Source: Helicostylum pulchrum (lineage: Eukaryota; Mucoromycota; Mucoromycetes; Mucorales; Mucoraceae). Taken from it: a stretch of DNA of 64,000 bases. Position 1 is the first letter of the stretch; every line of letters begins with the position of its first letter. Made by a program: the position numbers and the translations under genes. Of this stretch, positions 39,664 through 45,602 are shown piece after piece. A model generated the notes under the pieces. It worked only from the letters and a program-made list of their open reading frames with translations. It was not told the DNA's origin and did not search any database. The stretch is taken from the NCBI GenBank assembly GCA_025677825.1, contig JAIXMO010000076.1, positions 1 to 64,000 on the forward strand. Direction: 5' to 3'.

Positions 39664-41486
39664 ATGTACCAAGATACTTTTGAAGAAGACGATTTGATCG
39701 CCGAAGTTGAACTTGTTGCTCAAGCTCGTTATTCTCAAAATAACGAAGTTGATGATGGTTTTGATACTGAAGGTAAAATTTTACTTGTTTAAAAAAAAAA
39801 AATTTTTTTTTTTACAGCACAAAGTTAACCTTTTTTTTTTATATATAGTTGTTTCTAGCCAAACAACAACTGCTCAAATTCCTGATGGCGTTAGAAACTT
39901 TATTCTTCACTTTTACCGTAACGTCATTGATAACAACGTTTATGAACTCCACAATATCTTTGATAGTTCTTTCAACAAGTTGACCGAAAAGTATTATCAA
40001 AAGCAAGCATGGCCTGAAGCTGAAATCATTGCCCCTCTTGTCAATGATGGTAATATACTTTTTTTAAAATGTACGAAATCTCGCTCTTAATACTCTTTCT
40101 TTTCTTTTTAGATCAAGTATTTTTAACATTGTATCGCGAACTTTATTACCGTCACATTTATGCTCGTTTGACTCCTACTTTGGAACAACGTTTCCATTCT
40201 TATGAAAACTATTGTGATCTTTTCAACTATATCTTGAGTAAATATTCGACAATGAACAACAATGTAGAACCTTTTTTTTGTAGCAAAATCACTAATGTTT
40301 TCCTCCCCTTTTAAAAAAAATTACATTAGACTCTGATGGACCTGTTTCTTTAGAATTGCCTAACCAATGGCTTTGGGATATTATTGACGAATTCATTTAC
40401 CAATTCCAATCTTTCTGTAATTATCGTGACCGTATCAAGGGAAAGTCTGACCAAGAAGCCAACTTATTAAAGGAAAATTCACAAATTTGGAGTTGTTACA
40501 GTGTTTTAAACGTACTTTATTCTTTTATTCAAAAATCTCGTATCAATGAACAATTATTAGTTAGCAAGAACGGCGGTGATATGATGGAAGCAGCTGGTGA
40601 ATATGGATCTCGTCCTCTTTATAAAATGTTGGGTTATTTCTCTATTGTAGGTCTTGTACGTGTTCATTGTTTATTAGGTGATTACGTTTTGGCTTTAAAG
40701 ATGATGGATAACATTGTTTTAAACAAGAAGGCCATGTTTGCTCGTGTCACTGCTTGTCATGTTACCACTTATTATTATGTTGGTTTCGCTTACATGATGC
40801 TCCGCAGATATGCTGATGCCATCAAGGCTTTCTCAACTGTTTTATCTTTCATTCAAAGAACCAAGCAATATCATTCTCGTTCATACCAATTTGATCAAAT
40901 TGCTAAAAAGGGAGACCAAATGTATGCTCTTTTAGCTATCTGTATTGCTCTTTGTCCTACTAGATTAGATGAAAACATTCATTCTCAACTTCGTGAAAAG
41001 TACGGTGAACAACTTTTCAAGATGCAAAAGGGAGAAGAATCTCTTGCTGTCTATGTTGATTTATTCCAATTTGCTTGTCCTAAATTCCTTTCACCTACTG
41101 GTAAGGGATCTGATCCTCATCAAAACCAACTCAAGGTGTTTATGGCAGATATCAAGAACCAAATCAACCTCCCTACACTTCGTTCATTTATGAAGCTTTA
41201 TACCTCTATGGGTATTGAAAAGTTGGCCAAGTTTTTGGAAATCGATTCAGATGAACTCACCACTCAATTATTGATCTTTAAACAAAAGTCTCGTCAATAC
41301 AAGTGGGTCAGTGGTAACCTCTTGGAAGGTGAATACTTACCTACTTCCGATCTTGATTTCTGTTTAAAGCAAGATGTTGTTCATATTGCTGAATCCAAGG
41401 TCGGTCGTCGTTACGGCGATTGGTTCTTACGTAACATTAACCGTTGCGAAGATATCTTGGCCAACTTGGAACTTAGCAAGGCTTAA
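39664..41486 (+). CDS. Translation initiation factor eIF3 subunit L
   Basis: Four exons (39664-39772, 39849-40049, 40112-40237, 40330-41486) close in frame to 530 aa. eIF3L is a PCI-domain subunit of eIF3, present in animals, plants and many fungi but lost from budding yeast. Seen: [102 protein letters not shown], and the C-terminal PCI segment [19 protein letters not shown]. The conserved [15 protein letters not shown] block is diagnostic. The second donor is GTAATA and the third intron is long for this window (92 nt). The gene faces GCN20 head-to-head, so two translation-related genes share one promoter region. Confidence 0.95.
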
Positions 41487-42235: not shown

Positions 42236-42290
42236 ACAAAGGGGAAAACTCCCCTTTGTCAGTTTTTTTTTTTTTTTTTTTTTTTTTTTC
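42236..42290 (+). repeat. Inverted repeat followed by long T run
   Basis: ACAAAGGGGA (42236-42245) and TCCCCTTTGT (42250-42259) form a perfect 10-bp stem with a 4-nt loop. A run of about 28 T follows at 42263-42290. It looks like a bacterial terminator but stands in a eukaryotic convergent intergenic space. Confidence 0.7.
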
Positions 42291-42345
42291 ACGCGGAGGC
42301 CTAATCAAACATTGGTGGTAAAGATTGTTTACAAAAACTATATAT

Positions 42346-42351
42346 TTTATT
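42346..42351 (-). terminator. Candidate poly(A) signal AATAAA for THI5
   Basis: AATAAA on the minus strand about 330 nt after the THI5 stop codon and about 45 nt past the TPP aptamer. If used, the aptamer is inside the THI5 3' UTR. The actual cleavage site is not visible. Confidence 0.5.
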
Positions 42352-42392
42352 TTTAAAAGGTTACAAAATATAAATAAAAGAATTTAATAAAA

Positions 42393-42531
42393 GGTCAAAA
42401 CGCTTCCCTTCGCAGGTATTATCCTGATCAGGTATTAAGAGTTTAATTCTCAGCCATACTTTGTTTCTTATATTTTCTCAAATAGAAAAAAATAAAAAAA
42501 ACGTAATACAGCACCCCTAGCTTATAAGACC
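42393..42531 (-). promoter_or_regulatory. TPP (THI-box) riboswitch in the THI5 3' region
   Basis: A complete TPP aptamer on the THI5 strand. Seen: GGGGTGC (P2 start), J3-2 GGCTGAGA (CTGAGA at 42448-42453), then ACCTGATCAGGATAATACC (42415-42433) and GCGAAGGGA (42405-42413). Helices that form: P1 GGUC/GACC (42531-42528 with 42396-42393) plus AAGCU/AGC; P2 UAGGGGU/ACUCUUA (42519-42513 with 42442-42436); P3 CUGUAU/GUAUGG with wobble pairs; P4 CCU/AGG; and P5 AGG/CCU, where the P5 pairs differ from E. coli thiM yet still pair. These features define the family, which senses thiamine pyrophosphate. The aptamer is 3' of the THI5 stop, on the same strand, with no other minus-strand gene downstream. 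Confidence 0.95.
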
Positions 42532-42674
42532 TATTATTACAGTGCAAAATAAATAATTAAATAATAATAATATACGTAGCAAAAGAAAAAGAGACACGAC
42601 ATGTAAAAAAAAAAAAGTGAAACATAATTAGTACTTTTTTTTTGTAAAATATGCATGTACGAAACAAAACTTAC
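42531..42674 (-). other. Predicted 3'-UTR intron of THI5
   Basis: A GTAAGT donor at 42674-42669 directly follows the TGA stop. TACTAAT (42633-42627) fits a fungal branch point. The next AG in that direction is TAATAG ending at 42531; no other AG lies between. The intron would be 144 nt, and its last base is the first G of aptamer P1. Use of the intron is inferred. Confidence 0.6.
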
Positions 42675-43781
42675 TCAAGCAAAGATCTTGGGTTGAGAGA
42701 TACTAGCGTGTTGACAACTCTTACATCCACCTTCAACCACACCTGTTTCAACCGTAGCAGGCTCAACACCGCCACCAAGTCCTTGTTCATTCAACTTCCA
42801 CGTCAAGAAATCGTTTGTTTGATTTTGGGCGAATTCGGCATCAACAATACCCAGCTGTTTGCAGTAGTTGGTCACCTTGTTCCAGTCACGTTCAACATTT
42901 TGCAAATCACGCGAAAAGTATCGGAAAGATCTTTGAAAGATCTTGCGTTGAATATCTGTATCCAAATGAGGTTTCATTTCTACATACTTTTGGTACGCAA
43001 TAGCAGGATTAGCGATCATGTAATCGGTTGCTTGTTTAATAGCCCGCATAAACTTTTCAACCTTTTCCGGGTTGTTATTAATAAAGTCTTCATTACCAAT
43101 ATAAAGAATCTGCAAAAGAAAAGATTAGAATTTTACAAAAAAAAAAGAGAGAAGTAATTATTATTTTACCGAGCAGAAACAACAGCAGCCTAGTTCTGCA
43201 AGTTCATCAATTCGAAGCATTTGAATATCGTTACGGGACCTTCCTTGTTGAACAGACCATTCCTCCAACTCGACCTGCTGCACATTCTCAATACCAATAC
43301 CAGCATCAATCTCACCGCGTTGAATAGCATCAGTTACGTTCATGCCTACGCGAACGGCCTGGTACTCATCTTCCCCCATGCCATACTGCCTAGCCAAGTG
43401 ATCCAGCTGAACCTTGCCAAACTCGCCTACATAGCCGATCTTCTTGCCTCTCAAGGACTTGAAATCGGCGGTGATACCGCTTTTATGAGAGGGATGGATG
43501 ACACCAGTAAAGGGCTCGTCTAAAAGGGTACCGATGGACTTGATAGGATAACCTCGGGCTTTACCGGCAATAGTATGTATCATAGCCTTTAAACCAAGAT
43601 CAATTTTACCGGAACCGATAATTTCGGTAACGTCAGAGGGGTCGTTAGGTTCAAGGATGGCCACAGAAATATCTTGATCGGTAAAGAAACCAAGTTTGGA
43701 AGCTAAGAACAAGGGTAAATGGTAAGGTGTTGCCTTCCAGTTTAACAGAACAGTGATTTTTTCGCTACTAGTCTTTGTCAT
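42675..43781 (-). CDS. THI5: 4-amino-5-hydroxymethyl-2-methylpyrimidine phosphate synthase (THI5/NMT1)
   Basis: Two exons (43781-43170, 43109-42675) close in frame to 348 aa. The enzyme makes the thiamine pyrimidine HMP-P from PLP and an active-site histidine, a suicidal single-turnover reaction. Seen: [17 protein letters not shown] at the N-terminus, then GLKAMIHT with K65 (PLP lysine) and H69 (the donor His equivalent), spaced four residues as in yeast Thi5. Also [26 protein letters not shown] and the CCCFC motif at residues 199-203, just before the intron. The tail is Gly/Glu rich and ends SISQPKIFA. The family is a periplasmic-binding-protein fold. A TPP aptamer follows the stop codon, so feedback by thiamine pyrophosphate is likely. 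Divergent from the membrane-protein gene at 44319. Confidence 0.95.
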
Positions 43782-44318
43782 TTAAAATTTTAAAAAAAAG
43801 ATGATTTTGTAATAATAATAAAAAAAAAAAGAAAAAAAAAAAGAGAAAATTGCGCTTTGCTTTTATAATCATATTAACTGATCTTAATCAATCCATCCGT
43901 GTAACAAATATTGTCGTAAACGTTTCCTCATCTACACGTTATCCCGGAAGAACCCATTCATTTTTTTCATTTTAAACGTATAAGATGCATGTAAATTTCA
44001 CACTATGACTCAACTTGCATAAAGATTCTTTTGATCTCGAAAAAAAAAAAGAAAAAAGAAAGTCTAACCAAATATACCGGATTTAGAATTTACTTTTTTT
44101 GCTGTAGTAGCGTAATGCACTTCATTGTAGTTATAATTTAAATGGATATTAGAAAAAGAAGAAGCCGTTTACCGTGCCTCTTTTGTATTATTAATATTAT
44201 TATCATTATTATTAAAAACTAAGGTTTTATTTACGGATATAACGGCACATATAAAGAGAAATCATTTCAACTATTTTTATTTTCTCTTCCTGCTTACCCC
44301 CCCAAAAAAAAAAGTATA
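43782..44318. other. Divergent promoter region of THI5 and the 44.3-kb gene
   Basis: 537 bp with A-rich runs and T-rich leaders. No second riboswitch or gene was seen. A 5'-leader TPP aptamer, the usual fungal arrangement, was sought here by its CTGAGA and GCG-AGGGA cores and was not found. Confidence 0.5.
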
Positions 44319-45602
44319 ATGATATCGAAACTATTTGTTTTTTTTGCTGTGTTAGTATCAGCTAGTATAGTCAATGCTGAATGGATGTCAGTCGTTCCAG
44401 GTGCTCCTGAAAGAGGACTTAGTAAGCTGTTTGGTATTCCTACCTGGATCGCACACATTAAAGGTATACATATATTAAAAGAGAGAAGCTAGAGAGAGAA
44501 ATCACTGGTATTTAAAAAAAAAAAAACCGGGTATTAGATTACGATGAAGATGCAATGAACGCAACGACTGTATTTTCAGTTGTTTGTATCGCATTTTCTA
44601 CACTTAACGCGTTATACTTTATCTTTTTCATCCACTTACCAAAGCTTCCCCGTAACCAAAAAACGATTGGCCCTTTCAACAGCTTGGTTGCACTTTACTT
44701 GGTAGCTACATTTTTCGCTTCGCTTTCGTTTTCAATTATGAGTGTTGGTAGAATCTGGGCATCATTTGGTGTATTTCATAACTTGTTCGAGATTGCATTA
44801 CTTTCAATCATTATGATCCGTCAAAAATCGGTCACGTAAAGCTTACTACTTAATAAGGGAGAGAGTCAAACGAAACTTTATTTACAGATAACTAACATGT
44901 ATTCTATTTTTAGGCAGCGTGGATTTGTGGCAACTTGCTTTATTTATATCTTGATGACTATGTTTATTGTCATTATTGCACCGTGGCCATTAGACGCTTT
45001 GTTCTTTAAGTTTCAAGGTTTAGCTACTGATTTTGCATTGTGTATTGATCTCGGTAGACTTTATTACCATAATAAGGCTATTCATGAAAAGGCAAGTGTA
45101 GGTAGTATGATGCTTGCTTCTACAGACGATGAAGATGTATCGGATGGATTTAATAGTGAGGCAGATGAAATTGTGCACCAGTTACACCGTCAAAGAGTGA
45201 AAGAGAATAGACAGATGCAAGATGATCCCAATAAAGCCGCTCCCAATGTAACAACTCCTATTCATAAAAATATCATGGTTTTATATATAGCAGCATTTTT
45301 ACACGCCGCTGGTAATGCTCTGGTTACATTTTCTAATGATTTTATTCTGTAAGTCAACAACACACACAAAATTTTATTTTTTATTGTACTTACTTTCCGA
45401 AAAAATTAGATGGGTTATTTTCCAGTTTATGTATGCAATTGCTTTCCCCATGTACGCATATTACATTATTGCGGAACCAGATGCAAGCCGTTTGAGTCTC
45501 TATAAAGTAAATTACCTTAAAGAAATGCTTGTTGTATGCGCAAGTGTTGTAGTGGCTGCTTCTTGTATCGCTATAGGAATCTATAATGCTCTTAATGAAT
45601 AA
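44319..45602 (+). CDS. Secretory-pathway multi-span membrane protein, about 7 TM
   Basis: Four exons (44319-44463, 44538-44835, 44914-45348, 45410-45602) close in frame to 356 aa. A signal peptide (MISKLFVFFAVLVSASIVNA) is followed by a short lumenal segment and about seven hydrophobic helices: near residues 57-77, 90-111, 118-136, 150-177, 260-280, 295-315 and 335-352. A long acidic loop between TM4 and TM5 contains TDDEDVSDGFNSEADE. No GPCR-family signature motif is recognised. A topology like a receptor or transporter is the only claim made. Divergent from THI5; thiamine transport is one speculative role, but no transporter family motif supports it. Confidence 0.65.

Follow-up and report, generated by a model that had tools for sequence, protein, structure and literature searches.

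TPP aptamers behind the stop codons of THI5, THI4, and transporter genes in the fungus Helicostylum pulchrum

Introduction

The thiamine pyrophosphate (TPP) riboswitch in the 3′-untranslated region (3′-UTR) of plant THIC was reportedly worked out by Wachter and by Bocobza in 2007; in switches of this kind, the splice donor is otherwise paired with P4/P5 of the aptamer. Here, we describe a TPP aptamer that follows the stop codon of THI5/NMT1 in a 64,000-nucleotide (nt) stretch of Helicostylum pulchrum DNA (contig JAIXMO010000076.1, positions 1 to 64,000, hereafter the window), and we place it in the context of four further TPP aptamers of the same genome. TPP aptamers in the 3′ position are familiar from plants, and there is hardly any description of them for fungi. 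In the portions of two papers that treat the subject (PMC10043782 and PMC5882874), plants are assigned the 3′-UTR form, whereas fungi are assigned alternative splicing from introns of the 5′-UTR or of the open reading frame (ORF). The plant THIC switch is also treated in part of a 2025 plant RNA review (PMC12371167), and the acceptor of the plant and green-algal switches is given as the AG of the P2 AGGG in a passage of PMC9544697. According to a 2022 review, no bacterial riboswitch class other than TPP has been convincingly demonstrated to function in eukaryotes (PMC10043782).

The fungal switches of types I to IV, including those of Neurospora NMT1 and Aspergillus thiA, are placed in 5′-UTRs or coding-region introns in sections of Mukherjee 2018 (PMC5882874). 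The conclusion of that paper adds that some fungal TPP switches lie in 3′-UTRs, one such case being eIF5B copies of Postia placenta, and a single Mucor NMT1 switch is mentioned in the same excerpts (PMC5882874). For the Mucoromycota, the sugar-transporter switches (TPPsw-SUGAR) are presented as the main group, consistently or mostly located in the 5′-UTR and in some cases of type III, in the corresponding passages of Vargas-Junior 2024 (PMC11683625), and a statement in the Lichtheimia genome paper attributes a TPP riboswitch to all basal fungi (PMC4133162). TPP aptamers in 3′-UTRs are further reported for diatoms and prasinophytes, among them those of THI5-like genes of Micromonas and Aureococcus, in parts of Llavero-Pasquina 2022 (PMC9544697) and McRose 2014 (PMC4260697); excerpts of Donovan 2018 (PMC5997356), an oil palm study of 2020 (PMC7390266), and Li and Breaker 2017 (PMC5640933) belong to the related literature. 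Our literature search, which covered passages of the main article texts, found no fungal THI5 or THI4 for which a TPP switch in the 3′-UTR had been described.

Results

A TPP aptamer follows the THI5 stop codon

We scanned the entire window against Rfam with cmscan, and a single match exceeded its gathering score: the TPP model RF00059, at 42528–42388 on the minus strand, with 59.5 bits relative to a gathering score of 54.3 bits (E = 3.8e-9). The match spans the full model (1–105) and incorporates a long P3. An earlier note, made from the letters of the window alone, had called a TPP aptamer at 42393–42531 and had proposed the Infernal check run here; the call stands, as do its place and strand, and its boundaries are displaced by a few bases relative to the model match (42388–42528). 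Both ligand-contact motifs are present, with the CUGAGA pyrimidine-sensing motif at 42453–42448 and the GCG pyrophosphate-sensing motif at 42413–42411. The aptamer starts 146 nt past the stop codon of THI5/NMT1 on the same strand; the note had placed it 144–282 nt after that codon. Single-sequence folding of the aptamer region yields a z-score of −1.88. A sensitive scan of 42300–45000, which includes the THI5 promoter region, found no second TPP aptamer, in agreement with what had been claimed for the divergent promoter. By sequence and structure, the THI5-linked element is a genuine TPP aptamer.

At least five TPP aptamers in the genome lie behind genes

We then searched the whole assembly (32,194,346 bases in 168 contigs) with the RF00059 covariance model. 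This search returned at least five TPP aptamers with scores of 45.4–59.5 bits (E = 1.4e-6 to 4.6e-10), a count that is a lower bound because 49 of 977 first-look candidates were scored and that stays at five when the E limit is raised to 10. Only the THI5 aptamer exceeds the gathering score; the other four reach 45.4–53.4 bits (E = 1.4e-6 to 1.4e-8). An independent motif search (CUGAGA followed by AUAAU....GCG) gave six matches versus four in the reversed control, and these six correspond to the same five aptamers plus one site on contig C24 that is absent from the covariance-model matches. Both the CUGAGA and GCG motifs are kept in all five aptamers, and each has AGGGG at P2.

All five aptamers start 100–327 nt after the stop codon of a same-strand gene. 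THI5 and THI4, both classical targets of TPP, account for two of these genes, and the other three encode transporters, whose cargo may be thiamine or its precursors. The distance from the stop is 100 nt for THI4, the last exon of which is in frame through to its stop, 112 nt for an MFS_1 transporter (MFS; contig C99, locus L002), 146 nt for THI5 in the window, and 252 and 327 nt for two Sugar_tr transporters (SUG1, contig C91, L003, and SUG2, contig C6, L004, respectively). THI5 and THI4 are each represented by one strong locus in the genome, accompanied by weaker partial matches (one for NMT1 and three for Thi4). If ≈12,000 genes are assumed from relatives (the abstracts available for two other Mucorales give 11,977 and 12,379), ≈6% of strand positions are no more than 330 nt behind a stop, and placement of all five by chance then has a probability of ≈9e-7. 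Since five of five aptamers and one decayed copy (see below) lie behind genes, 3′ placement looks like the rule for TPP aptamers in this genome; the shared placement of the other four lends further support to the 3′ location originally assigned to the THI5 aptamer.

The THI5 gene and its neighborhood

Exon 1 of THI5/NMT1, which encodes hydroxymethylpyrimidine phosphate (HMP-P) synthase, lies at 43170–43781 on the minus strand and matches Pfam NMT1 with E = 3.9e-50. Its top protein match is Thamnidium elegans (95% identity); among the matches with a name, two Mucor species (85–86%) and Rhizopus (84%) come next. A single 60-nt coding intron (43110–43169) separates it from exon 2 (42675–43109), which ends in a TGA codon at 42677–42675; the spliced frame encodes 348 amino acids and agrees with that of the relatives, and the identification of the gene as THI5 is confirmed. 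Three of the six relatives aligned with exon 2 (T. elegans and two Mucor species) have the same C-terminal end (terminal SISQP..F), Rhizopus is one residue longer, and the remaining two stop a few to several residues earlier. With the end the same or nearly so in four of the six, the THI5 stop codon is credible.

Past the aptamer, the first AATAAA on the THI5 strand is found at 42346–42351, 36 nt beyond the aptamer; this is the candidate poly(A) signal to which the earlier note had pointed, and an AATAAA as near as this occurs in 9% of shuffles. A perfect inverted repeat, ACAAAGGGGAAAACTCCCCTTTGT, is present at 42236–42259, ≈60 nt beyond this AATAAA, and right after it there is a 27-base T run at 42263–42289, which reads as A on the strand of THI5. 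The next recognized gene is convergent, with part of it at 40581–41486 on the plus strand (Pfam Paf67, PF10255, E = 2.7e-126; ORF end at 41486), which we take to be eIF3 subunit L. Between the aptamer and this gene, there is no minus-strand ORF of more than 78 codons, even when counted from stop to stop. The THI5 3′ region has no second match elsewhere in the genome.

A predicted intron in the THI5 3′-UTR

A consensus splice donor, GTAAGT (42669–42674, minus strand), to which the earlier note does not refer, directly follows the THI5 stop codon. It is followed by a branch-like site, TACTAAT, at 42633–42627, and by 94 nt free of AG that extend from TACTAAT to TAATAG (42536–42531). In dinucleotide shuffles, GTAAGT falls within the first 12 nt in 1% of 400 cases and such an AG-free run arises in 0.7% of 1000, both figures being post hoc. 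The last base of TAATAG (42531) lies two bases ahead of the aptamer model match. A second possible acceptor, CTAG at 42517–42520 (minus strand), is located at the P1/P2 boundary, which is where the TPP switches of plants and green algae have their AGGG acceptor. Because the donor, branch-like site, and AG-free run occur together, a 3′-UTR intron of 144 nt, predicted from sequence to run from GTAAGT to TAATAG (42531–42674, minus strand), or alternatively one of 158 nt, is plausible. No AATAAA was found inside this predicted intron. The pyrimidine before the P2 AG (CTAG) is found only in THI5 and THI4, and AGGGG is available as a candidate acceptor in all five aptamers. Two de novo intron scripts yielded six and five candidates, and the reversed control of the latter script gave two; these numbers do not suffice for a splice-site matrix, and the scripts were not used.

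Transporter paralogs and a decayed aptamer

The closest paralog of SUG1 is found at a contig end on C3 (L035), with 87% identity over residues 141–401. Its 3′ region is homologous to that of SUG1 in one alignment of 1281 columns with 78% nucleotide identity, which extends from the coding end past the aptamer. The aptamer of the C3 paralog (minus strand, ≈2385–2265 of L035) has decayed, with loss of both the P2 GGGG and the GCG motif, and is no longer listed by cmscan; one of six aptamer loci (the five plus C3) is thus clearly decayed. Two more blocks, around GACGGCGAGACTCGGG and TCCTAAGGATGATTA, are conserved between SUG1 and C3 past the aptamers (minus strand of L003 and L035). A sugar-transporter paralog on C103 (L036) contains two in-frame stops, and cmscan found no TPP match on the loci of the C103, C147, and C97 paralogs or of the weak NMT1-like match on C125.

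Alignment of the MFS and SUG1 aptamers gives a score of 114, with 124 of 161 columns identical, versus scores of 31–52 for MFS with the other three aptamers. When the SUG1 module is compared with the C3 paralog, the match covers almost its entire length, and with MFS it covers only approximately the aptamer (query 150–263 of 270). MFS and SUG1 belong to different transporter families despite their similar aptamers. Because the MFS aptamer is closest to that of SUG1 though the families differ, this pattern suggests that an aptamer may have been copied from the 3′ end of one gene to that of another. Behind the MFS aptamer, we also observe by eye an inverted repeat composed of GAGGAGCCAAAGAAAA and a complementary stretch (≈1625–1640 with 1813–1825 of L002), which encloses ≈170 nt.

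AATAAA motifs and hairpins upstream of transporter aptamers

One AATAAA each is found between the stop and the aptamer in MFS, SUG1, and SUG2, and the first AATAAA past the THI4 aptamer lies at 24 nt. In MFS, SUG1, and the C3 paralog, the common order is AATAAATAG-hairpin-aptamer, with the hairpin just upstream of the aptamer. The MFS hairpin occupies the same place after AATAAATAG; that MFS shares the AATAAATAG start rests on a multiple alignment, which is weaker evidence, and a second three-way alignment left the MFS downstream arm unaligned. A long helix comes after AATAAATAGGTT in both SUG1 and its C3 paralog. The outer helix of SUG1 has 14 pairs, 12 of which, in a consecutive series (columns 8–19 with 103–114), are still paired in C3, four of these having changed, each to G-U; the two end pairs are broken in one case and gapped in the other. 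Inner helix 3 of SUG1 is unchanged in C3 (five of five pairs).

Discussion

We consider it probable that each 3′ aptamer regulates the preceding gene through TPP-controlled splicing or polyadenylation at the 3′ end. The first part of this proposal, that these elements are 3′ riboswitches of the upstream genes, is held with considerable confidence, whereas the specific splicing or 3′-processing steps are put forward tentatively and may well turn out otherwise. The sequence shows the aptamers, where they lie, which families their genes belong to, and the decayed copy behind a paralog; the regulatory steps that we infer would run as follows. When TPP is plentiful, the aptamer would fold around it and change 3′-end formation of the pre-mRNA, and the changed 3′ end would make for a less stable mRNA. 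In THI5, the most likely step would be splicing of the predicted 3′-UTR intron that begins right after the stop codon, with its candidate acceptor or acceptors beside or inside the P1/P2 stem. In MFS and one sugar transporter, the step may instead be the choice of a proximal AATAAA at the foot of the hairpin just upstream of the aptamer. A more far-reaching version, in which this lineage moved its whole TPP regulon to 3′ ends and the transporter aptamer gates a hairpin-held poly(A) signal without splicing, we regard as unlikely; if true, it would represent a riboswitch that directly controls polyadenylation in a natural eukaryotic gene.

A number of observations weigh against this proposal. 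A consensus donor (GTAAGT or similar) soon after the stop is found in THI5 alone and is missing from the other four loci, so that a single splicing mechanism shared by all five is unsupported and was rejected. When the aptamer 3′ half was tested against upstream sequence beginning 60 nt ahead of the stop codon, the best duplexes were no better than those of shuffles at any of the five loci; since 16–27% of 300 shuffles are equally good, we do not claim pairing of the aptamer with upstream sequence. Neither THI5 nor THI4 has an AATAAA between stop and aptamer, and the AATAAA placements are individually weak, being matched in 8–35% of shuffles upstream of the aptamer (three loci) and 9–33% downstream (five loci). 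As for the hairpins, z-scores from single-base shuffles are −1.4 for SUG1 and −0.1 for the C3 paralog, which are not unusually stable, and −2.6 for MFS. In C3, SUG1 helix 5 loses four of eight pairs and helix 2 one of the four pairs with letters, and all such SUG1/C3 pair counts come from two sequences only, for which a shuffle control has no power. A gated poly(A) signal in the transporters is consequently an idea with some anatomical support and not a result. THI4 is followed on its own strand by two open frames, which start ≈0.14 and 0.9 kb beyond the aptamer and measure 126 and 170 codons, respectively, from stop to stop. Finally, the 3′-UTR TPP aptamers of diatoms look sound, and yet the one tested shows no thiamine response in the account given in a section of PMC9544697; because that aptamer ignored thiamine, placement and conservation alone are no proof of function.

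These points bear directly on the alternatives. In a switch of the plant THIC kind, TPP frees the donor, and splicing removes a proximal poly(A) site, which leaves an mRNA that is long and unstable. The shared 3′ placement and the THI5 donor and acceptor candidates speak for such a mechanism, as does the AG of AGGG at the start of P1/P2 in all five aptamers, which corresponds to the plant and algal acceptor position described in a passage of PMC9544697; TPP-induced removal of a 3′-UTR intron together with a poly(A) site is documented for plants in part of PMC10043782. The insignificant upstream pairing, the lack of an AATAAA between donor and aptamer in THI5, and the four loci devoid of a consensus donor all count against it, and we judge a THIC-like switch to be possible but doubtful. 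Alternatively, TPP could control polyadenylation without any splicing, in that P1, folded upon ligand binding, would hide or expose cleavage and poly(A) elements. This would accommodate both the AATAAA upstream of the aptamer in MFS, SUG1, and SUG2 and that found 24–36 nt after it in THI4 and THI5, along with the AATAAATAG-hairpin-aptamer order common to MFS, SUG1, and the C3 paralog; however, AATAAA is common by chance in AT-rich DNA, TAATAAATAGRTT occurs 27 times in the genome versus 10 times for its reversed control, and control of this type was looked for and not seen in the diatom case, as far as the pertinent section of PMC9544697 goes. Polyadenylation control by itself is therefore conceivable, and we are inclined to doubt it.

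Two further alternatives remain. The aptamers may be vestigial or constitutive and lack a TPP response, for which the diatom THIC aptamer provides a precedent (reported in part of PMC9544697) and the decayed member among the six loci some support. This we consider decidedly improbable, given that both ligand-contact motifs are kept in five aptamers on differing sequence backgrounds and that two thiamine genes (THI5 and THI4) and three transporters are the targets. Each aptamer could instead form the 5′ leader of some other transcript, whether downstream or independent, and would then be an ordinary fungal 5′ switch. Such a reading finds some footing in same-strand genes further down, with PHO4 starting ≈1.1 kb behind SUG1 (L003) and PRP39 ≈0.5 kb behind SUG2 (L004), and in the two open frames behind THI4, neither of which has a Pfam match. 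We know of no report of PHO4 or PRP39 as a TPP target, which counts against this alternative. It is rejected for THI5 because the next recognized gene is convergent and the interval is free of minus-strand ORFs above the length given above, and for MFS because the next ORF of more than 100 codons listed in the 1.5 kb behind it is on the opposite strand; for THI4, SUG1, and SUG2, the rejection would be less clear. A 5′-leader origin also leaves unexplained why five of five aptamers sit behind fitting genes, THI4 and the transporters among them, and we hold it to be very improbable indeed. The proposal that the aptamers serve the genes in front of them is the one we retain.

The five detected aptamers, in biosynthetic and transport genes alike, all lie behind the stop, which shows that a plant-like placement also occurs outside plants and algae. 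The published 5′-UTR placement of the Mucoromycota sugar-transporter switches is thereby called into question. The THI5 locus offers a direct testing ground for metabolite control of 3′-UTR splicing or of the choice of poly(A) site. A natural comparison within one genome is provided by the sugar-transporter paralogs, intact and decayed.

Among the described systems, the 3′-UTR aptamers of diatoms and prasinophytes share the 3′ position with those reported here and differ in lineage, and the diatom P2 reads GCGG versus AGGG here. The fungal switches of types I to IV share the aptamer family and the targets (NMT1/THI5, THI4, and transporters); they are defined by a location in the 5′-UTR or a coding intron, whereas all five aptamers here follow the stop codon, and by position the element is not one of the described 5′ or intronic fungal types. 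TPPsw-SUGAR likewise comprises TPP aptamers with sugar transporters in the Mucoromycota, but in H. pulchrum the sugar-transporter aptamers, two intact and one decayed, all follow the transporter gene. The plant THIC switch differs in that the gene here is THI5 and not THIC, that THI4 and transporters carry the aptamer as well, that pairing of upstream sequence with the aptamer, expected for a 3′-UTR donor held by P4/P5, is no better than in shuffles at all five loci, and that the predicted THI5 intron holds no AATAAA. The other defining features of the plant type either fail here or have candidates at most. Common to both are an aptamer on the coding strand behind the stop of an HMP-P synthase gene, AGGG at P2, and, in THI5, a candidate 3′-UTR intron, and in its position the element resembles the plant THIC type.
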